42,781 nt of DNA, taken from positions 1 to 42,781 of the IMG/VR virus record IMGVR_UViG_3300047459_000012; one strand, given 5' to 3'. The stretch's first letter is position 1. Each line of letters begins with the position of its first letter. The position numbers were made by a program, and so were the translations under genes. The DNA comes from a virus. The notes under the pieces are model-generated. The model did not search any database and had not been told where the DNA came from. It saw only the letters and a program-made list of their open reading frames with translations. Positions 3 through 32,788 of this stretch are shown piece after piece.

Positions 3-695
3 GGAACGTTCGCAGGTAACTACGTTGGTAACTTCAGTCGTGACTTCGGTGGAAACTACGTCGGTAACTATGCACGTGGATTTGCTGGTAACTACGTAGG
101 AGATTATACTCGTGGATTTGCTGGTGAATACACTGGTGCTTATTCCGGAACATACTCTCGTGGATTTGCTGGTAACTACGTAGGTAACTACAACCGTGGA
201 TTCGTTGGTGAGTACACTGGTACTTACAACACAACGTTTACAGGTAACTACTCACGTGAATTCTCCGGACAGTACACACGCGACTTCGCTGGTGACTTTA
301 CTGGAAACTACGCAAGAACATTTGCTGGTGAGTACACTGGTGCATACGCACGTGACTTCACAGGTAACTTTGAAGGTAACTACAACCGTGGATACATTGG
401 TGAGTACACTGGTACTTACTCACGTGACTTCGTAGGTAACTACTCTCGTGTCCGTGTATCTGCATACGCACGTGTTAGACCATCATCCTACAGTGGCACA
501 TACACGCGTGATCGTGTATCAACATACGTAGGTGACTTCACTGGTAACTACACTCGTGACTTCGGTGGTAACTACACTCGTGACTTTGCTGGTAACTACG
601 CACGTAGTTTCGTCGGTAACTACATCGGTCAAACCATCTCCGATACAGAAACACACGTTACAGACGTATACACGCTATACGTAAGGGTTGCATAA
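3..695 (+). CDS. Tetrapeptide-repeat structural protein (3' end, partial)
   Basis: The reading frame is open from the left edge to the TAA at 693-695, giving 230 residues of a longer protein with no start in the window. From codon 3 to codon 207 an aromatic residue falls at every fourth position: 52 consecutive positions, 49 of them Tyr or Phe and three Arg (codons 151, 159, 171). The tetrad is [YF]-x-[G/R]-[N/D/E/G/T], and G or R at the third place often follows a G,G,R order, giving a 12-residue super-repeat. After codon 210 the repeat stops and a short tail rich in Thr, Val and Tyr closes the protein. It lies upstream of the tail fibre module, so a virion surface or fibre role is likely but inferred. 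I do not recognise a named family. It ends on a terminator hairpin. Confidence 0.85.
   Translation, partial: GTFAGNYVGNFSRDFGGNYVGNYARGFAGNYVGDYTRGFAGEYTGAYSGTYSRGFAGNYVGNYNRGFVGEYTGTYNTTFTGNYSREFSGQYTRDFAGDFTGNYARTFAGEYTGAYARDFTGNFEGNYNRGYIGEYTGTYSRDFVGNYSRVRVSAYARVRPSSYSGTYTRDRVSTYVGDFTGNYTRDFGGNYTRDFAGNYARSFVGNYIGQTISDTETHVTDVYTLYVRVA
9..632 (+). repeat. 12-bp-period tandem repeat coding the tetrapeptides
   Basis: Fifty-two tandem 12-nucleotide units each code one tetrapeptide, mostly of the form TAC/TTC-NNN-GGT/CGT-AAC/GAC. Units differ by synonymous and conservative changes, so the repeat is clear in protein and approximate in DNA. It is in frame throughout. Confidence 0.9.
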
Positions 696-706
696 ACAAC
701 CCTTTT
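683..706 (+). terminator. Hairpin terminator overlapping the stop codon
   Basis: AAGGGTTG (683-690) and CAACCCTT (697-704) form a perfect 8-bp stem with a 6-nt loop and a short T stretch. The loop contains the stop codon of the tetrapeptide protein. Confidence 0.7.
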
Positions 707-716
707 ATGTTATAAT
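688..716 (+). promoter_or_regulatory. Possible sigma70-like promoter inside the terminator
   Basis: TTGCAT (688-693), a 17-bp spacer and TATAAT (711-716) resemble a host-type promoter. The -35 box lies in the terminator stem, and the expected start near 723 lies just before a second terminator hairpin, so productive output is doubtful. Confidence 0.35.
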
Positions 717-809: not shown

Positions 810-1271
810 ATGAGTTATAGACGTTGGATGGACAACGCATTCTGGGAAACAGAAGAGAAGAAAGAACTAAACTGTATCCTAGAAATGGAAGATGATATGG
901 GTCGTGTCACTCGTCAACAGATGTTGTTGGCAAGGCAGGATCGTGATGGAAATACCAACGAGTTGTTTTCGGAAGTTGTGGATGCGCTTGGTGAAGAGTT
1001 GATCGATAAGGAAACTATCGATCGAGTCGAACGCAAAGCTGCGGAAGCGGAAGAAGAGAAACAACGTGATTTGGAACATCAAAAGGCTAGGAAACTTGAA
1101 AAACTGTTCAACTACAAACTAGAAGCGTTTGAGGTTGAGGAGATTAAGAACTCTAAAAACCGGAAGTTAAAGGCAAAATTGCGTCGTGCAAAATCTAAGA
1201 TTGAAGTAGATATGTACTCAATCATGATTCTACAAGACCAACTAGAGGCCGAGACAGATGGAAAAGAGTAA
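810..1271 (+). CDS. Charged coiled-coil protein of unknown function
   Basis: This 153-residue protein is rich in Glu, Lys and Arg. Its central and C-terminal part (about residues 75-150) reads as one or two long charged helices (for example AEAEEEKQRDLEHQKARKLE), suggesting a coiled coil. There is no signal peptide or membrane segment. The ATG at 810 follows GGAG at 796-799. Its 3' end overlaps the next gene by 14 nt, so it is probably translated together with the glycosyltransferase and dioxygenase-like genes. I do not recognise the family. A scaffold or adaptor role would be a guess. Confidence 0.75.
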   Translation: MSYRRWMDNAFWETEEKKELNCILEMEDDMGRVTRQQMLLARQDRDGNTNELFSEVVDALGEELIDKETIDRVERKAAEAEEEKQRDLEHQKARKLEKLFNYKLEAFEVEEIKNSKNRKLKAKLRRAKSKIEVDMYSIMILQDQLEAETDGKE

Positions 1272-1995
1272 AGGTTTTATTATTGTTGCGTCTAAGAAAC
1301 GCAACTTTTATTTGTACGCAATCAATCTTGCAGAGTCTCTCAGGGACTACTATGAACCGGAAGAGGAATGCAAGATTTGTTTGGTGACTGAGGAACGATT
1401 CCTTGATGACCGTGGTCGAGATGTCGCAGACGATATTCTCTTATGTGACGATCACTACCGCGCTAAGTTATGGGGTATGGCGAAATCGCCGTATGACCTA
1501 ACGATGTATATTGATGCTGACATGGAAGTAGAGCATGAAGACATTGTCAAAGTATGGGACGAAATGAAAGATCACGATGTGGTCTTCACCGCTTTGACAG
1601 ATGACCGTGACTACATATATGCAGAACGTGACTTTGATACTCCGGAAGGCGTTTCTAAGTTCACACTATGCGGAGCAGTATGTTTATATGATATGTCTAA
1701 ACCGATTGTACGTGAGTTCATGGATGATTGGTGGGACTTGACATTCAGACAAATGAATGACACTTGGTGGCCAGACGGGTACGTGGACAGTCTCAAATCT
1801 TGGGATCAGTTCTCACTCTGGTGGTTGACTGAGAAAGAAGAAAAGTATAAGGATCTCAAGGTTGGTATCTTTGATGACGACTTGAGATGGAACTACTACA
1901 ACGCACTTAATTGGGCAATAACAAAACCAGAAACAGGGCCAGTGATTATACGTCACTTCTCTGCTGGTCTTAATAAGGATACACCAATCGTATGA
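1258..1995 (+). CDS. GT-A fold glycosyltransferase
   Basis: The 245-residue protein starts with a beta strand and helix typical of nucleotide-sugar-binding GT-A enzymes (KGFIIVASKKRNFYLYAINL). It carries a D-x-D metal/nucleotide motif, YIDADMEV, at residues 84-91 (D86, D88). A Trp-rich segment around residues 157-190 (DDWWDL, DTWWPDG, WDQFSLWWL) may form the acceptor site, and a His-containing strand (IIRHFSAG) lies near the C-terminus. It probably transfers a sugar from a nucleotide sugar to a phage or host acceptor; donor and acceptor cannot be read from the sequence. It overlaps the preceding gene by 14 nt and the next by 4 nt (ATGA), which supports one translational unit. Confidence is high for the fold class and low for the substrate. 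Confidence 0.75.
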   Translation: MEKSKGFIIVASKKRNFYLYAINLAESLRDYYEPEEECKICLVTEERFLDDRGRDVADDILLCDDHYRAKLWGMAKSPYDLTMYIDADMEVEHEDIVKVWDEMKDHDVVFTALTDDRDYIYAERDFDTPEGVSKFTLCGAVCLYDMSKPIVREFMDDWWDLTFRQMNDTWWPDGYVDSLKSWDQFSLWWLTEKEEKYKDLKVGIFDDDLRWNYYNALNWAITKPETGPVIIRHFSAGLNKDTPIV

Positions 1996-2699
1996 CACAG
2001 TTAAACGACCAATATCTAAAGCACGTCGACGTTAAGAACCCTGAGTTGCTTGCGATTCTGGACAACTACGCTGGACTACCTAAGATTTCTGGATTTGCAG
2101 AGAACTGTCACTGCACGTCTAAGGAACGTATGCGTCAGCGTAACTGGTACGTTGGACCAAAGTACATGCAAGAGATTGTAGATGAGGGAACGCAACACGA
2201 AGGTTTCCCAGATGAGATGGTAGGTTATAACTTTAAACTATCAGATCGCGCACACCAGATGTTCGAGAAGGATGCGGACCCAATCTTCAAGCGTGACATG
2301 ACGCACATGTTGTCGGATCTAAACGACAAGATGATGAACTTCCTGTCTGTCAAGCACAATGCGCTTGCTGCGGTATACCCGCCAGGTGGTTTCATTGCAT
2401 GGCACAACAATGCTAACGCTCCAGGCTTCAACCTAATATTCTCTTACTCAGAGAGTGGTTCAGGTTGGTTCGAGTACATCCATCCGGAAACTAAAGAAGT
2501 TGTCCGTTGCCAAGACAAGCCAGGTCAGTGGACTTGCAAGGCAGCATACTTCGGACACTACGGTGAAGAAGAGAAACTAATGTATCACGCTGCATCTTCA
2601 GAAGATGATTGGCGTGTAACCGTTTCTTATGTCTTCGACTGGTCTGAGACTTCAGAAGAATTCCGTGAGATGGTCTTAGAAGACATCGCTTCAGAATAA
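1992..2699 (+). CDS. 2OG-Fe(II) oxygenase-like protein (paralogue A)
   Basis: The 235-residue protein has a double-stranded beta-helix signature in its C-terminal half: YPPGGFIAWHNNANA at about residues 129-143, GWFEYIHPET near 158, a YFG strand near 186, YHAA at 198-201 and WRVTVSYVF at 207-215. In 2-oxoglutarate/Fe(II) oxygenases the iron ligands are H-x-D/E and a distal His, with an Arg holding 2-oxoglutarate. Here H138, H199 and R208 fit, but the acidic ligand is Asn (H138-N-N140). The paralogue at 24216 has the same H-N-N, so the change is conserved. It could be an altered oxygenase or a non-catalytic fold. The start overlaps the glycosyltransferase stop. Downstream is a late promoter. 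Confidence 0.7.
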   Translation: MTQLNDQYLKHVDVKNPELLAILDNYAGLPKISGFAENCHCTSKERMRQRNWYVGPKYMQEIVDEGTQHEGFPDEMVGYNFKLSDRAHQMFEKDADPIFKRDMTHMLSDLNDKMMNFLSVKHNALAAVYPPGGFIAWHNNANAPGFNLIFSYSESGSGWFEYIHPETKEVVRCQDKPGQWTCKAAYFGHYGEEEKLMYHAASSEDDWRVTVSYVFDWSETSEEFREMVLEDIASE

Positions 2700-2716: not shown

Positions 2717-2757
2717 CCTAAGTGTATAAATAGAAACAGAACGTTTATACACTTAGG
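2717..2757 (+). promoter_or_regulatory. 14-bp perfect hairpin spanning late promoter and RBS
   Basis: CCTAAGTGTATAAA (2717-2730) is exactly complementary to TTTATACACTTAGG (2744-2757), with a 13-nt loop. The left arm holds most of the late promoter box and the right arm ends in the Shine-Dalgarno-like AGGG of the next gene. Read-through RNA from upstream would fold and hide the ribosome site. RNA started at the late promoter (expected near 2738) would lack the left arm and leave it free. Confidence 0.75.
2725..2732 (+). promoter_or_regulatory. T4-type late promoter
   Basis: An exact TATAAATA box in the context GTGTATAAATAG lies 31 bases before the downstream ATG. In T4 this box is recognised by RNA polymerase carrying gp55. 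Confidence 0.85.
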
Positions 2758-2763
2758 GTCTTG

Positions 2764-3120
2764 ATGACTATGGCAACTTACGAAGATTTTACAATTGATC
2801 AAGGTGCAGATTTAGCTCTACAAATAGAGTTAGTGAACCCAGATGGTTCAAAGAAAGATCTCACTGGTTACTCCGCTTCTGCAAAGATGAAAAAAACTTA
2901 CAGAAGTATCGAGTCAATTGATTTTACTGCCGTGATTCCTGAACCTTCACTCGAAGGTATCGTCACATTATCCCTTTCTAATTTAATAACCGATGGTCTA
3001 TCCACACGTGGTAGATATGTCTATGATGTAGAGATCAGCTTCGTTGATGAAGACGGACACACTATCATAGAAAGAATACTAGAAGGAAAGATAAAAGTCA
3101 ACCCTTCTGTCACAAGGTAA
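2764..3120 (+). CDS. Ig-like phage tail/baseplate-associated protein
   Basis: The 118-residue product has the pattern of small phage tail proteins with one immunoglobulin-like (BppU N-terminal-like) domain: FTIDQGADLALQIEL at the N-terminus, DLTGYSASAKMKK in the middle, RYVYDVEISF near residue 88, and ILEGKIKVNPSVTR at the end. It probably decorates or connects parts of the tail or fibre. Starts at 2764 or 2770 are both possible; AGGG at 2755-2758 gives gaps of 5 or 11 bases, and a TTG at 2761 is less likely. It is the first gene behind the late promoter at 2725. Family assignment comes from pattern memory, and the exact virion role is unknown. Confidence 0.7.
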   Translation: MTMATYEDFTIDQGADLALQIELVNPDGSKKDLTGYSASAKMKKTYRSIESIDFTAVIPEPSLEGIVTLSLSNLITDGLSTRGRYVYDVEISFVDEDGHTIIERILEGKIKVNPSVTR

Positions 3121-4485: not shown

Positions 4486-7400
4486 ATGGCATTTAGGCAG
4501 ATTAAATCCCCTGCACTAGCGGACAAGGCGGTAATCAATACTAAGCTTGACGAAAGTGCGGTACAGGGACAATCAACCCTTCAAGGTATGGTAAACCCTG
4601 CGGATTGTTTCACGCTTCTCTATGATGTCAATTCCGACTCATTAAAGAAGATTGGTGCAGACGCATTCTTCGCATCTTTCAGTACATCTGATCTAAGCGA
4701 AGGATCTAACCTATACTATACCGCTGATCGTGCTAATGCTGATGTTGCTGCTCAAATCGACGCAGACGTTCTAGTAGAAACTCAACGCGCACAAGCTGCA
4801 GAAACACTACTACAAAACAACATCGACGCAGAATCAAGTGCTCGTGCTCAAGCAGACGTTACCCTACAGGCTAACATCACTGCGGAAGAGACACGCGCAA
4901 AGGCACGTGAAGATTCAATCGAAGCTGCATATCAGTCAGCAGACGCAAATCTACAGTCACAGTTAAATAACTTCATCAACAACGTAGACAGCGATTCACT
5001 AGACTCTCTAGCAGAAATCGTAGAAGCATTCCAAAACGCTGATGACGCGTTATCTGCTTCTATCATCGCAAACGCTACTGCGATCACGAGCGAAGTTAAC
5101 CGTGCTGTTGCAAAAGAAACAGAAATCAACGACCGTCTTACTGTCGAAATCTCTCGCGCACAATCAGCAGAAACTTCACTTGCTGGTCTAATCGGCGCGG
5201 AAGAGACTGCACGTATCGCTGGTGACAACGCACTATCTGCACGACTAGACACAGAAGAGACCAAGTCTACTTCTCTACAGTCTCAGATCACTACTGAAGT
5301 TAGTCGCGCTAGTGGAGAAGAGTCACGCATCGAAGGTCGTCTTGACAGTGAAATCACTCGTGCTACTGGTGCAGAAGTTGCAAACGCACAGAACATCCAA
5401 GACGAAATCAACGCACGTGCTGTTGCAGATACACAAGTTCGTACCGACCTAGGTGCTGACATTGTTACTGCTGAAGCAGCTGCTAAGGCACACGCTGAAG
5501 CACAAGACGCACTAATGATTGGTGATGCATCTGTAGACGGTACTGTATCTAATACTGTTACTGACCGCATCGCAACTGCAAAAGCAGAAGCAATCACTGA
5601 ATCAAGCAACTCTGTTGCAATCGAGAACGCTGCACGTATCGCAGGCGATTCTGATCTAAACGTTCGCGTTGATACAGAAATCTTACGTGCGACTACTGCT
5701 GAAACTGTCCTACAAGACAACATCGATGCAGAAGAAGTCCGTGCAACTGCTGCTGAAGCAAACCTACAAACACAGGTCAACTTCATCACATCAAACACTG
5801 ATCCAGCTGCTCTAGACTCACTAACAGAAATCGTTAGTGCATTCCAGTCATCTGATTCAGACATGTCTGCTCTTATCGCATCTAACACAACTGCGATTTC
5901 ATCCGAAGCAACAACTCGTGCATCTGCTGACACTATCCTACAGGGTAACATCGACGCAGAGGCATCAACTCGTTCAACTGCTGACGCTGGTCTACAATCT
6001 CAGATTGACCAGATCAATGTTGACATTCAAGTTGAGAAAGATGATGTTCTTGATGAAGCAAAAGCATACACGGATCAAGAAGCTGATTCACACATGGCGG
6101 AAGCGAAACAACACGCTGACGCACAAGATACTGCACTAATCGGTGACGCTTCCGTAAATGGAACTAGTGGAAACACTGTCACTGCTCGTATCGCAACTGC
6201 GAAACAACAGGCTGTATCACACGCAAACTCAATCGTTGCTACAGAAGAAGCTGCTCGTATCGCTGCAGATGATGCACTATCTCTACGTACTACTGTACTA
6301 GAAGGTGAGATGGATGCGGTTCAGGTTCTTTCTTCACAGAACGAAACTGACCTACGTGCAGAAGAAGTTGCTCGTGCTTCTGGAGACTCAGATCTACAGG
6401 CGCAAGTCGATGCATTAAACTCGAACACTACAATTGAAGTTGATGATCTACAAGATCAGATCACTGCTGAAGTTCTACGTGCTCAAGGTGCAGAACAGAC
6501 TAACGCTGCTTCAGTTGTTACAGAACGTCAACGCGCTGAAGGTGTAGAATCAAGTCTACGTACAGACATCAACACAAACATCGGCAACATCTCTACGAAC
6601 GCAGGTAACATCACTATTGAACAAGCTGCGCGTATTGCTGGAGATGCGGCACTATCGACTCGTGTTGATACCATAGAAGAAGGTTTCACAAACGTTGACT
6701 CTGATCTACAATCTCAGATCTTCGCAGAAGTCGCTCGCGCATCTGGTGCTGAAACTGTCCTAACAAATCAGGTAACTGGTCTACAGGGTCAAATCACAGA
6801 CAACGATTCAGACATTCTTGCTCTACAAGGACTAGTTGGTTCTGACGTACAAGATCTACAAGATCAACTTGACGCAGAAATCACTCGTGCTACTGTCGCA
6901 GAGGGAGTTAACGCTGCTTCTGTAGTTGCTGAGAAGAACCGTGCTGAAGGTATCGAAGGCGGTCTACGTACTGACGTAGATAGTGTTCAGGTACAGGTTA
7001 CTGCAAACGATTCTGATATCCTTGCACTGCAAAATCTACAAGGAACAGATGTTGCTGATCTACAGAATCAGTTGGACGCAGAAGTTTTACGTGCGACTGG
7101 CGTTGAAGGTGGTATCCGTACTGACCTAACAACTCTAGAAGGTCGTGTTGACTTCATCGTTTCTAACGAAGATGGTGCTGCACTAGATTCACTAACAGAA
7201 ATCGTTAGTGCATTCCAAGAAGCAGATTCAGATCTACAAGGTGTTATCGATGCTAACGGTGGTCGTCTAACTACTCTAGAAACAGAGATGGACGCAGTTG
7301 AACTACGTGCTACTGACCTAGAAGCGAAAGACGTTGCTCACACAAACCGTCTAAACGGTCTAGATTCTGATCAACTAGTTCAGAACGGTCGTCTAAACGT

Positions 7401-9963
7401 TGCCGAAGCAGATATCGTTGCACTAGAAACTAAGCAAGGTTCTGCACTTCTACAAACTGTTGCTACTAACATCTCAGACGCAATCAACGAACTACACGCA
7501 GAAATCGACGTAGAAGTTGGTGATCTAACTGCTCTAGAGGGTCGCGTAACAACTGCTGAAGGTGAAATCGATACTCTACAGTCTGAAATGGACGCGGTAG
7601 AAGATCGTGCAACTTCACTAGAAACTCGTATGACTACAGAAGAAGGTCACGTTGACGTTCTACAAGGTCAGATGGGTACGCAGGTACTAACAACAACTGC
7701 ATCAACTGTTACTGCTGCTGTTAACGAGTTACACGCTCAGACAGACGTAGACGAAGGTCGTATCTCTACTCTAGAAGGTGAGATGGACGCAGTCGAAGGT
7801 CGCGCAACTTCACTAGAAAGTCGTGCAACCGCAACTGAAGCGAAGGACATCGAACAAGATGGTCGTCTAACAGTTAACGAAGCAGACATCGATGCACTAG
7901 AAACTAAGGTTGGTTCTTCAACTGAAACTCTAGACACAACTGCACAAACTCTTGTTGGTGCAATCAACGAAGTACACGGTGAGACAGACACTAATACATC
8001 TGGTCTTGCTGCTGCTGTTGCACGTGCAGACGCTGACAGTGACGCTCTAGTACAAGAGATCGCTGATCGTACTGCTGCAGATACGCAGATCCGTATCGAT
8101 CTTGCTGCTGATCGTACAATTGATCAAGCAGACTACATCGCACGTGACGCGGTTGTCCTTGCATCTGCACAGACTTACGCAGAAGCAGAAGCGGACGACG
8201 CAGAAGCTGCTGCTAAGACATATGCAGACGGTATCGTTGCAAACGAAGCTGCTCTACGTACAGGTGCTGACGCAACTCTACAGGGTAACATCGACGCAGA
8301 AGCAACTGCACGTCAAATCGCTGACAACGGTCTAGACTCACGTCTAACAGTTGTTGAGACAGAGATGACTGCAACTCAACTTGCTGCTGGTGTAAACGCT
8401 GATGGTACTTACATCACACCAACATCAACTAACTACCTGAATTCATCTACTTCTCTCGCAGACGCAGACGCGAAGTTAGACGCTGCCATTAAGGCAGTTG
8501 ATAACACTCGTAACTCAGGTATCAACAACCTACAGTCACAGATTGACGCAGAGATCGCACGTGCGAGTGCTGCGGAAGATGCAAACACCGTTCTAATCAA
8601 TGGTGAGACTACTCGTGCAACTGGTGTAGAATCAGATTTGTCTGCATTGATCAATGTCAACGCACAGTCAATCGTAGATGAGTCTACACGTGCACAGGGT
8701 GTTGAATCATCACTACAGTCTCAGATCGACTTTGTCGTATCTAACACAGACTCTGCCGCACTTGATTCTCTAACAGAGATCGTTGCTGCACTACAGTCTG
8801 GAGACGGTGATCTACTATCTCTAATCCAAACTAACCAAACAGACATCTCCACTAACGCTTCTGGACTTGCACAAGAGATCATTGATCGTGCGGCACAGGG
8901 CGCTGCGATTCGTGGTGAGTTCGCTGCTGCGGATACAAACCTACAGACTCAGATCGACGGTAAAGTCGCTAAGTCTGGAGACACGATGTCTGGTTCCCTA
9001 TCAATGGGCGGCAACAAGGTAACTTCAGTCGCTAACGGTACAGACCCACAAGACGCGGTAAACAAGGGTCAGTTGGATGCAGGTCTTGCTGCACAACACA
9101 TCTCGCAGTTCTCAACTACAGATGTAACCGAAGGTGATAACCTATACTTCACAACTGCTCGCGCACGTTCTTCAGTATCTGCTGTAGACACTGCGGGTGA
9201 AGGTAAGGTATCTTACGACCCATCGACAGGTGCATTCTCAATCGATACTGCAAAGACCATGTTGGAACTTGCAGACGTTGCTGATACTGCATACGACGGT
9301 AAGAATGGTTATGTACTACGTGTAAACAACACTCTAGACGGAATGTCTCTACAGGATCCAACTCAGTTGGCATTCAACAACGCACAACGCCAGACAATGG
9401 CTGGTGACGGTGCGCAGACTACATTCGCGATAGATTTTTACACACAAGACCAGAACGCAATCGTCTTTGTTGGTGGTGTTATTCAGGATCCAGGCGTACA
9501 CTACTCCATCGATGCACAGGCACAAACTATTACATTCAACGCTGCAATCCCAGTTGGTACACAGGCGGTTATCATCGCACAGTCTACTAACTCAGTTGGT
9601 GTACTAGATCCTAAGTCGGTTGGTTTAGAAACTCTTGCTGACAATATCAAGGTATTTGAACAAGGTAACGATGTTGTTGTTGGAACTTCTGCTACAGTAG
9701 TTTCTGCATTCAACAAGACAACTTACCGTTCTGCTAAGTATGTTGTAACAGTAGAGTCTGGTGGTGAATTCGAAACTCGTGAGGCACTAGTTGTCCACGA
9801 TGGAACATCTGCTTACATTGTTGAGTATGGTGTCGTATTCACTGGTTCATCATTCCTAGGTGATACAGACGTTCGTGTAAACGGACAGAGTATTGAACTA
9901 CTATACACCGCTGAATCAGCAGGTGCGGTAGTTTCTGTCTCAGTAACATACGTTGACGCATAA
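4486..9963 (+). CDS. Giant coiled-coil tail fibre protein (1825 aa)
   Basis: The N-terminus (MAFRQIKSPALADKAVINT) and an NLYYTADRA motif near residue 83 are followed by over 1300 residues of short alternating helices rich in Ala, Asp, Glu and Thr (recurrent phrases such as RAQAAETLLQNNIDAE, ARIAGDNALSAR and LESRATATEAK), expected to form a trimeric coiled-coil shaft. A module LDSLTEIVSAFQ recurs near residues 169, 443, 900 and 1425. Near residue 1496 is the fibre repeat GDTMSGSLSMGGNKVTSV, then NLYFTTARA and a beta-rich C-terminal region that may be the tip or its attachment domain. It resembles the long repetitive fibres of marine T4-like phages; equivalence to T4 gp34 or gp37 is not established. 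AGGAG precedes the ATG, and it lies in the same late unit as the next fibre. Confidence 0.85.
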   Translation: MAFRQIKSPALADKAVINTKLDESAVQGQSTLQGMVNPADCFTLLYDVNSDSLKKIGADAFFASFSTSDLSEGSNLYYTADRANADVAAQIDADVLVETQRAQAAETLLQNNIDAESSARAQADVTLQANITAEETRAKAREDSIEAAYQSADANLQSQLNNFINNVDSDSLDSLAEIVEAFQNADDALSASIIANATAITSEVNRAVAKETEINDRLTVEISRAQSAETSLAGLIGAEETARIAGDNALSARLDTEETKSTSLQSQITTEVSRASGEESRIEGRLDSEITRATGAEVANAQNIQDEINARAVADTQVRTDLGADIVTAEAAAKAHAEAQDALMIGDASVDGTVSNTVTDRIATAKAEAITESSNSVAIENAARIAGDSDLNVRVDTEILRATTAETVLQDNIDAEEVRATAAEANLQTQVNFITSNTDPAALDSLTEIVSAFQSSDSDMSALIASNTTAISSEATTRASADTILQGNIDAEASTRSTADAGLQSQIDQINVDIQVEKDDVLDEAKAYTDQEADSHMAEAKQHADAQDTALIGDASVNGTSGNTVTARIATAKQQAVSHANSIVATEEAARIAADDALSLRTTVLEGEMDAVQVLSSQNETDLRAEEVARASGDSDLQAQVDALNSNTTIEVDDLQDQITAEVLRAQGAEQTNAASVVTERQRAEGVESSLRTDINTNIGNISTNAGNITIEQAARIAGDAALSTRVDTIEEGFTNVDSDLQSQIFAEVARASGAETVLTNQVTGLQGQITDNDSDILALQGLVGSDVQDLQDQLDAEITRATVAEGVNAASVVAEKNRAEGIEGGLRTDVDSVQVQVTANDSDILALQNLQGTDVADLQNQLDAEVLRATGVEGGIRTDLTTLEGRVDFIVSNEDGAALDSLTEIVSAFQEADSDLQGVIDANGGRLTTLETEMDAVELRATDLEAKDVAHTNRLNGLDSDQLVQNGRLNVAEADIVALETKQGSALLQTVATNISDAINELHAEIDVEVGDLTALEGRVTTAEGEIDTLQSEMDAVEDRATSLETRMTTEEGHVDVLQGQMGTQVLTTTASTVTAAVNELHAQTDVDEGRISTLEGEMDAVEGRATSLESRATATEAKDIEQDGRLTVNEADIDALETKVGSSTETLDTTAQTLVGAINEVHGETDTNTSGLAAAVARADADSDALVQEIADRTAADTQIRIDLAADRTIDQADYIARDAVVLASAQTYAEAEADDAEAAAKTYADGIVANEAALRTGADATLQGNIDAEATARQIADNGLDSRLTVVETEMTATQLAAGVNADGTYITPTSTNYLNSSTSLADADAKLDAAIKAVDNTRNSGINNLQSQIDAEIARASAAEDANTVLINGETTRATGVESDLSALINVNAQSIVDESTRAQGVESSLQSQIDFVVSNTDSAALDSLTEIVAALQSGDGDLLSLIQTNQTDISTNASGLAQEIIDRAAQGAAIRGEFAAADTNLQTQIDGKVAKSGDTMSGSLSMGGNKVTSVANGTDPQDAVNKGQLDAGLAAQHISQFSTTDVTEGDNLYFTTARARSSVSAVDTAGEGKVSYDPSTGAFSIDTAKTMLELADVADTAYDGKNGYVLRVNNTLDGMSLQDPTQLAFNNAQRQTMAGDGAQTTFAIDFYTQDQNAIVFVGGVIQDPGVHYSIDAQAQTITFNAAIPVGTQAVIIAQSTNSVGVLDPKSVGLETLADNIKVFEQGNDVVVGTSATVVSAFNKTTYRSAKYVVTVESGGEFETREALVVHDGTSAYIVEYGVVFTGSSFLGDTDVRVNGQSIELLYTAESAGAVVSVSVTYVDA
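5812..5846 (+). repeat. Fibre-module DNA repeat, copy 1 (35 bp)
   Basis: Codes for LDSLTEIVSAFQ. Copy 2 at 7183-7217 differs by one base and copy 3 at 11655-11689, in the other fibre gene, by two bases. A more divergent copy lies near 8762. Confidence 0.85.
7183..7217 (+). repeat. Fibre-module DNA repeat, copy 2 (35 bp)
   Basis: Same 35-bp module as 5812-5846 with a single C-to-T difference, in the same reading frame of the giant fibre. Confidence 0.85.
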
Positions 9964-12090: not shown

Positions 12091-12112
12091 TATAAATAAA
12101 ATCGTATAAATA
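12091..12112 (+). promoter_or_regulatory. Two tandem T4-type late promoters
   Basis: Exact TATAAATA boxes lie at 12091-12098 and 12105-12112, 14 bp apart start to start, directly after the fibre terminator and 34 bp before gene 13. They should drive the neck and packaging operon. Confidence 0.85.
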
Positions 12113-12145: not shown

Positions 12146-12913
12146 ATGTACGCTACTGACAGAGAAGAACTAATCGAGTATTGCCTACGTGCACTGGGAC
12201 ATCCAGTTGTTGAGATCAATATCGATGACGAACAATTAGATGATCGTGTTGATGAGGCACTTCAATGGTTCCGTGAGAACCACCCAGACGGGTCGAAGAG
12301 ATATTATCTCAAACATCAACTAACACAACAGGATGTCGACACACAGACCGTAGATCTACCGGACGACCTTGATTTGACTGCGGTGGTACGTATGTTACCA
12401 GTCTCCCTGTCGAACTCTCAGGGGTGGTTTAGTGACGCTTGGCAGTATCTACAGTATACCATATCAGACTTCACTCGTGCAAACGGTGTGTTGGGTGATC
12501 TGGCGTATTATGAAGGTATGCAACAACAGTTATCGCTACTCGACATGAAGTTGATGGGTCGACCACAGATTACTTTTGATCGACAGTACAATCGTGTGAA
12601 CCTACTTGTTTCCAAAACGAAACTAACAGAGGGAGACTTCGTCGTGTTTGAAGTCTATGGTATTCGCAGTCCGGACGATGCAGTGTCCGAATACAATAAT
12701 CTATGGAACCACCGCTTCCTGAAAGAATACACAACTGCACTGATCAAGCGTCAGTGGGGCATCAACCTAATCAAGTTTGACGGTATGTCATTACCTGGCG
12801 GGGTTACTATCAATGGTCGTCAAATCTATGATGACGCAATCGCAGACATCGACAAGATCATGGAGAAGTTCCGATTGGAAGAGGACGAAGGTCCAATGTT
12901 CTTTATGGGGTAA
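12146..12913 (+). CDS. 13: Neck protein gp13
   Basis: The 255-residue product matches T4 gp13, which with gp14 forms the neck that seals the filled head and joins it to the tail. Recognisable features are an N-terminal helix (REELIEYCLRALGHPVVEIN), an acidic segment DEQLDDRVDEALQWF at about residues 28-42 with HPDGS and YYLKHQLTQQD shortly after, and a C-terminal region beginning near residue 180 (NNLWNHRFLKEYTTALIKRQ). T4 gp13 is longer (309 residues). It is the first gene of the 13-14-15-16-17 block in T4 order, behind two late promoters. Gene 14 starts 3 nt after its stop. Identification combines sequence pattern and synteny. Confidence 0.9.
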   Translation: MYATDREELIEYCLRALGHPVVEINIDDEQLDDRVDEALQWFRENHPDGSKRYYLKHQLTQQDVDTQTVDLPDDLDLTAVVRMLPVSLSNSQGWFSDAWQYLQYTISDFTRANGVLGDLAYYEGMQQQLSLLDMKLMGRPQITFDRQYNRVNLLVSKTKLTEGDFVVFEVYGIRSPDDAVSEYNNLWNHRFLKEYTTALIKRQWGINLIKFDGMSLPGGVTINGRQIYDDAIADIDKIMEKFRLEEDEGPMFFMG

Positions 12914-27786: not shown

Positions 27787-27816
27787 TACCTCATTAAATT
27801 TTGGAAGTTGTATATC

Positions 27817-28407
27817 ATGAAACCTAAAGAAAAACCACATTACGTCAATAATAGAGACTTTTCTAACGCAGTCGTCGAGTACTGTACTTCTGCCCAAGAG
27901 GCAAAAGATGTCGGTGAGTCCACACCGATCGTTACAGATTATATCGCTTCCTGCTTCCTAAAGATCGCAGAGGGTCTCTCTCATAAAGCAAACTTTGTTC
28001 GTTATACCTATCGTGAAGAGATGGTCATGGATGCGGTCGAGAACTGTCTCAAGGCGATCGAGAATTACGATATCGAAGCTGCAACCCGATCGGGCAAACC
28101 AAACGCATTTGCTTACTTTACACAGATCTCATGGTATGCATTCTTGCGTCGGATCCAAAAGGAAAAGAAACAACAAGACGTAAAGATGAAGTTCATCGCA
28201 GAGGCGGACATCGGCGAGTTCCTTGATGATGATGGTGAAGGATATGGAAATATGCAATATGCGTCTCCCTTCATTGACACCCTACGTATGCGTATCGATG
28301 CAGTTAAAGGTGCTGACCAAGAGTTTAAAGAGTACGCGAAAGAAGAGAAGAAACGTAAACGTCGCGCAGTAAATGTTGATTCGGACTTATCGGAGTGGAT
28401 GGAATAA
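27817..28407 (+). CDS. 55: Late transcription sigma factor gp55
   Basis: The 196-residue protein matches T4 gp55 (185 residues), the small sigma factor that directs RNA polymerase to TATAAATA late promoters. Conserved pieces are HYVNNRDFSNAVVEY near the N-terminus, the core-binding/promoter region REEMVMDAVENCLKAIENYD and NAFAYFTQISWYAFLRRIQK (about residues 90-110), and a hydrophobic-acidic C-terminus DSDLSEWME suited to binding the sliding clamp, as T4 gp55 does. I chose the ATG at 27817 (GGAAG at 27803-27807); the upstream TTG is too close to that site. Seven exact late boxes in this window are its likely targets. Confidence 0.93.
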   Translation: MKPKEKPHYVNNRDFSNAVVEYCTSAQEAKDVGESTPIVTDYIASCFLKIAEGLSHKANFVRYTYREEMVMDAVENCLKAIENYDIEAATRSGKPNAFAYFTQISWYAFLRRIQKEKKQQDVKMKFIAEADIGEFLDDDGEGYGNMQYASPFIDTLRMRIDAVKGADQEFKEYAKEEKKRKRRAVNVDSDLSEWME

Positions 28408-32401: not shown

Positions 32402-32473
32402 GGGGCGGTGGGTAACTTCTCTTTCACCGCGAATACTTTATTATGATTCACCCACCGCCCCGTTTTTTTTTTT
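32402..32473 (+). terminator. Strong terminator with 12-bp stem and 11-T tail
   Basis: GGGGCGGTGGGT (32402-32413) is perfectly complementary to ACCCACCGCCCC (32450-32461), with a 36-nt loop, then G and eleven T. The next gene's ATG begins at the first base after the T tract. Confidence 0.9.
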
Positions 32474-32712
32474 ATGAAACTGTATGATCCCCTAATCGCA
32501 AAAGAGACCTCAATCCATGTTGCACTTGGGACGGTCATCAACTATCCACTTAACATCTTCTACACATGGTTAGCAGTTGTTAAGTGGGGTATCACGGACC
32601 CTATAACTTTGTCCACTATTCTTACTGTCGGAATATCCTTCGTCGCGTTCACTCGCATATACATAGTAAGGACTCTTACAGAAAGACGTAAGACCAAACT
32701 TAATAAAGATAT

Positions 32713-32722
<10 letters not shown>
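32474..32722 (+). CDS. Small membrane protein (DUF7220-like)
   Basis: The 82-residue protein has two predicted membrane segments (about residues 18-37, GTVINYPLNIFYTWLAVV, and 43-62, ITLSTILTVGISFVAFTRIY), then a basic tail (RTLTERRKTKLNKD). The pattern resembles small two-helix phage membrane proteins of the DUF7220 type; this is recalled, not searched. The ATG follows the T tract of a terminator immediately, with no Shine-Dalgarno sequence. Its last codons and TAG stop (32720-32722) lie inside the tRNA gene, so tRNA processing would cut its mRNA. Role unknown; holin-like activity is possible but unsupported. Confidence 0.7.

Positions 32723-32788
<66 letters not shown>

Follow-up and report, generated by a model that had tools for sequence, protein, structure and literature searches.

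A hairpin that probably holds back translation of a tail-fibre assembly gene until late transcription in a marine T4-like phage

Why would a phage place a late promoter in one arm of a perfect hairpin and the ribosome-binding site of the adjoining gene in the other? The question arises in virus record IMGVR_UViG_3300047459_000012, whose 42,781 bases were analyzed at full length and are called the window here. Judging by its gene content, the source is a T4-like phage, with gp13-, gp14-, gp17-, gp18-, gp20-, and gp23-type proteins encoded in the left half of the window and UvsY, gp55, gp46, gp45, gp44, gp62, RegA, and gp43 types in the right half. Phage C48C1 (listed under Kyanoviridae) has the closest annotated genome, with 75% identity at the hairpin locus. 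The late box TATAAATA occurs 10 times in the window versus 1.35 expected, mainly in the left half, and the gp55-type factor would be its expected reader. Exact TTGNNN-N16-18-TATAAT promoters are found in the right half, with the sole exception of 688-716; no other exact match lies within the first 24 kb (the late half of the window). An initial annotation of the sequence had proposed that early read-through RNA is kept translationally silent by the hairpin, while late RNA starting inside the loop escapes. The features involved are listed in Table 1.

Table 1. Position of the hairpin, the gene behind it, and related features in the window
Feature	Position	Strand	Remarks
Sigma-70-type promoter	688..716	+	TTGCAT-N17-TATAAT with TG preceding the -10 box; conserved; 118-aa gene ~2.05 kb downstream
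Cassette gene 1	810..1271	+	153 aa
Cassette gene 2	1258..1995	+	245 aa, glycosyltransferase-like by eye (YIDAD motif)
Cassette gene 3	1992..2699	+	235 aa, perhaps hydroxylase-like by eye; ends 18 nt before the perfect stem
Hairpin left arm, CCTAAGTGTATAAA	2717..2730	+	pairs 14/14 with the right arm
T4-type late promoter box, TATAAATA	2725..2732	+	mostly within the left arm
Presumed late transcription start	2738	+	sixth base past the box, in the loop; placed from T4 late promoters
Hairpin right arm, TTTATACACTTAGG	2744..2757	+	pairs 14/14 with the left arm
Shine-Dalgarno-like AGGG	2755..2758	+	in the right arm
118-aa gene	2764..3120	+	PHROG 1084/3304 "L-shaped tail fiber protein assembly"; homologues found
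gp55-type late sigma factor	27808..28407	+	phrog_234, E 1.7e-48

The arms of the hairpin (ATCCTAAGTGTATAAATAGAAACAGAACGTTTATACACTTAGGGTCTTGATGACTATGGCA) are 100% complementary across a loop of 13 nt, as first annotated, and with G-U pairs included the helix grows to 17 bp (2715-2731/2743-2759). Its RNA fold has a free energy of -23.5 kcal/mol (z -4.6), a stability equaled by 0 of 200 shuffles, and no second perfect inverted repeat of ≥14 bp (loop of 3 to 40 nt) is present in the window. The late box and the AGGG had been placed in the left and right arms, respectively. The box does lie mostly inside its arm; for the AGGG a small correction is needed, in that AGG falls within the perfect arm while the final G (2758) is one base beyond it, yet wobble-paired. 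The box is a T4-type late promoter directly upstream of the 118-aa gene, 31 nt before ATG 2764, and nearly all relatives retain it ahead of their copy of the gene. Either ATG 2764, 5 nt past the AGGG, or ATG 2770, where most relatives start, could be the start codon.

Burial of the start site was expressed as opening cost, that is, the free energy to open the start region from -16 to +6, with read-through RNA modeled as starting 30 nt ahead of the late box and late RNA as starting six bases past it. The computed cost was 21.2 kcal/mol on the read-through RNA versus 5.2 on the late RNA. When as much as 400 nt of preceding sequence was included, the AGGG was paired on the read-through RNA with a probability of 0.99 to 1.00, and the hairpin is thus predicted to hide the ribosome site on the longer RNA. 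Since the predicted late start falls past the 5' strand of the hairpin, the late RNA should be unable to form the stem; its predicted cost stays at 4.2 to 5.2 kcal/mol for any start from 2733 to 2752, with two of the four AGGG bases still pairing locally and weakly. The computed folding therefore agrees with the annotated picture of a site hidden on the read-through RNA and largely free on the late one. If ATG 2770 is taken as the start, the difference between the two RNAs is only 8.4 to 8.6 in the nearly identical loci L195 and L161.

By the same method, the T4 genes e, 49 (measured from the non-consensus box AATAAATA), I-TevII, segB, and 53 gave differences of 13.3, 13.1, 12.6, 12.2, and 7.5, and T4 genes 4, 9, 15, and 18 gave 2.0 to 2.8. 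The effect in the window matches that of e, 49, segB, and I-TevII in size, but soc, which the annotation had also named, scored only 1.9 though it is a documented case; the method is therefore imperfect and misses some documented cases. Among homologues of the 118-aa gene, the median difference was 6.8, with 63% above 5 (59 distinct 5' regions). In contrast, 42 other late-promoter genes on the same contigs had a median of 0.7 and none exceeded 5 kcal/mol, ruling out burial as a general trait of late promoters. When the shuffle was confined to bases preceding the late start, the burial effect was lost, and by this measure 56% of the homologues and no control were outliers.

We propose that the hairpin is probably a cis-acting developmental translation lock on the tail-fibre assembly gene. 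RNA polymerase would start at 688-716, or at another upstream start, transcribe the cassette at 810-2699, and continue into the tail-fibre assembly gene; the terminator scan detected no terminator from 1305 to the hairpin, so the polymerase would run on. In this long RNA the left arm, which carries the late-promoter sequence, would pair with the ribosome-binding site and leave the gene untranslated. Later, RNA polymerase carrying gp55 would use TATAAATA and start the RNA inside the loop, and the short late RNA, lacking the left arm and hence with an open ribosome site, would allow expression alongside the other virion genes. We infer the existence of the read-through RNA, the position of the late start, and the block of translation. 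The box and the stem stand in the sequence, and burial and release, specificity for this gene, a T4-like size of the effect, co-variation of the arms, and an early-type promoter upstream, all found in the sequence or by computation, support the annotated interpretation in silico.

The promoter at 688-716 is, from its sequence, a plausible source of early read-through RNA. Its hexamers are kept in relatives while the spacer varies, and two other hairpin clades (the L029 and L036 groups) carry TTGACA versions at equal distance. An exact match was found in 33 of 52 hairpin loci versus 10 of 39 co-directional loci without the hairpin (raw counts, relatedness ignored), mostly at ca. -2.05 kb in the former and scattered in the latter. 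The three co-directional genes behind it have the same order in most hairpin-bearing relatives, and searches of Pfam, PHROG, and PDB gave no identification of their proteins. A terminator-like hairpin at 731-752 directly follows the promoter (~15 nt on) and may limit the early RNA that starts there; another such site lies at 1285-1305. The promoter itself overlaps a further terminator-like hairpin (683-704), the hairpin at 731-752 is kept with varied sequence in relatives, and the stretch 683-752 is possibly an attenuator or leader structure.

In related marine phages, the region from VrlC to gp14 has been described as a cluster for host recognition that comprises tail fibres as well as glycosyltransferases, the latter thought to alter the host surface (PMC7029224), and the hairpin locus of the window precedes gp13/gp14-type genes. 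If such genes were expressed early beside late tail genes, a lock would presumably be needed. The same hairpin could nevertheless act against read-through from an upstream late promoter, so that the gene would be dosed through its own late promoter and timing would play no part. Its mechanism would be identical whatever the source of the long RNA, and the gene does sit among late structural genes. However, the cassette is immediately preceded by a conserved early-type promoter and two terminator-like hairpins separate it from the large upstream gene, and we consider dosage control unlikely.

Relatives differ in the sequence of their stems. The stem CCTAAGT/ACTTAGGG is found in the window and in C48C1, while other loci have CCTTAAACTGTT/AACAGTTTAAGG (L016 group), CCTCAGATTGT/ACAATCTGAGG (L029 group), CCAGTTTCC/GGAAACTGGG (L033/L036 group), or GTTAATTCATATAA/TTATATGGGTTAAC (L291). 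The recurrent use suspected in the annotation thus holds in the form of unlike stem designs at the same gene. An altered right arm in L191 mends the bulge seen in its relatives. In the L016 group the stem extends outward and so hides a second ribosome site, a purine-rich GAGG closer to the ATG. A stem acting mainly in RNA stability or processing, for instance as an RNase III-type substrate or as a barrier at the 3' end of the cassette RNA, would make burial a by-product, and in many relatives the stem does begin a few to ~18 nt past the upstream stop codon. Against this, the ribosome site or the start codon falls within or next to the right arm in most strong designs despite shifts in stem sequence and position, and the late-start region is always within the stem, which leaves a primary role in stability or processing quite improbable.

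Co-variation over the whole clade (alignment A2) was set aside because the register of the stem shifts by one between subclades, and an arm-swap test and a count within one subclade were used in its place. Among 51 UTR types, own arms were best in both directions for the window (-26.0 kcal/mol versus a mean of -7.7 with other arms), L029, L021, L027, and L291. Most types had no preference for their own arms (median rank 19 among co-directional types), and the evidence for co-variation therefore rests on the strong-hairpin types. Within the L016 subclade, 98.1% of cells were paired, and neither this value nor the covariation score was reached by any shuffle. One pair changed from A-U to G-C in three sequences and another was altered on both sides via wobbles; two pairs with double changes were equaled by 39 of 500 shuffles. 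The comparison of related phages suggested in the annotation thus shows arms that co-vary, both in the arm swap and in the A-U/G-C double changes. These results suggest that pairing rather than sequence may be selected and that the lock may have been rebuilt several times with unrelated stems, a part of the wider early-cassette reading given below.

Inverted repeats are also common in DNA operators, transcription terminators, and two-way late promoters, and the late promoter of I-TevI is overlaid by an operator that I-TevI itself binds (PMC2988022). We rejected the three in turn: the sequence of the arms differs between clades, as would not suit an operator; the stem is followed by GTCTTGATG with no T run and was not listed by the terminator scan; and the right arm has no exact reverse TATAAATA. 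A palindrome of any of these kinds is very improbable. A chance repeat is hardly credible, even in A+T-rich intergenic DNA that folds readily, given a mean of 0.015 such repeats expected per window (200 first-order Markov re-samplings, of which 1 had any), a hairpin that persists with other arms in many relatives and is lacking in the 42 control late genes, and the co-variation, which makes chance very unlikely.

By design, the proposed lock would be of the T4 gene e and I-TevI kind, with functional membership predicted from sequence. Two reviews (PMC3014915, PMC2988022) describe the hairpin mechanism for e, soc, 49, and I-TevI of T4, and related arrangements for I-TevII, I-TevIII, segB, and Aeh1 mobE, the genes so locked being late genes present on long early or middle RNAs. 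Gene e, as described in the section of PMC3014915 on TIR structure, has an adjoining late promoter, a hairpin that hides the ribosome site on a long early RNA, and a late RNA without the 5' strand of that hairpin; the computed difference is also similar (13.3 versus 16.0 here). It differs in having two late boxes and another stem, and in being a lysis gene (lysozyme), whereas here the late box itself is within the stem, the gene is for tail-fibre assembly, and the phage is Kyanoviridae-like and not of the Straboviridae. Repression was measured for gene e and is predicted from sequence for the window gene. The I-TevI, I-TevII, I-TevIII, segB, and Aeh1 mobE genes similarly have a site sequestered on early or middle RNA that late RNA escapes (PMC2988022), and in I-TevII our computation also places the late box in the stem. 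However, these are homing endonuclease genes, unlike the virion-assembly gene considered here, whose stem is redesigned between clades. The starts of soc and 49 are likewise sequestered on long RNAs (PMC3014915), in different genes.

Searches of an open-access library gave no account of this type of hairpin at the gene, nor is the gene named in the relevant passages of the T4 reviews PMC3014915 and PMC2988022; the target gene, the group of phages, and the repeated redesign all seem to be new. If true, the lock would bring a virion-assembly gene of marine phages far removed from T4 under a kind of control known for a few genes of T4, and would offer a natural series of stem designs for one lock with which to test how much burial is needed. 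It also predicts early activation of genes in the host recognition region, with the neighboring tail gene restrained.

A wider reading, for which we would put the chances a little short of even, is that a large group of marine T4-like phages carry, in the host recognition region, an early-transcribed cassette within their late structural genes and silence the first late gene behind it with a repeatedly rebuilt hairpin, selected for pairing and not for sequence, while hairpin-less relatives have at least two other types of conserved leader. Over 138 distinct 5' regions, the median difference was 5.4 where the upstream gene is co-directional (n=115) and -0.15 where it is divergent (n=20). On the protein tree, the hairpin label requires 19 changes and is clustered, and its association with the direction of the upstream gene, clear in raw counts, was not significant on the tree (too few independent pairs). 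Among cultured phages, no exact late box was found in the 100 nt before the gene in S-T4, Sf-CH8, MED4-213, P-HM1, S-CAM9, ACG-2014f, and Pelagibacter phage Mosig. S-SRM01, HTVC008M, and the Melnitz phages have an exact box before the gene, and Melnitz may, from its sequence, have a weaker hairpin.

Other leaders were seen at the same gene. In a clade without the hairpin, the late box is followed by a conserved leader, GGCAGGGGC..GTCCGACAAAGAAA..ATTTC-ATG (loci L041, L043, L044, L046, L048, L049, L055, L073, L088, L092, L096, L101, L102, L144, L155, L157, and others). It may be an unknown structured RNA; Rfam gave no match in the three loci searched. A second shared motif, CGAGTTACTTAGTATCG, followed by ATTGGG or similar ahead of the start codon, lies upstream of the homologous gene in L212, L217-L223, L234, L235, L240, and L249. 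L047 and L060 have a shorter design, in which CCATA just past the late box pairs with the ATGG of the start itself and the presumed late start would split the left arm in two.

Elsewhere in the window, positions 1-690 hold the end of a gene with short, degenerate GNY-type repeats at the left edge, and 4486-9963 encode an 1825-aa repetitive protein, also with short degenerate repeats, with one weak match, to a PHROG of unknown function. Rfam found a tRNA alone over the five sources searched. Inverted repeats lie at 32402-32461 and 32546-32587, upstream of tRNA-Thr (32713-32788), one of them being the perfect 12-bp GGGGCGGTGGGT/ACCCACCGCCCC. The gp13-type gene at 12146 is preceded by two late boxes 14 nt apart (overlapping range 12091-12112).
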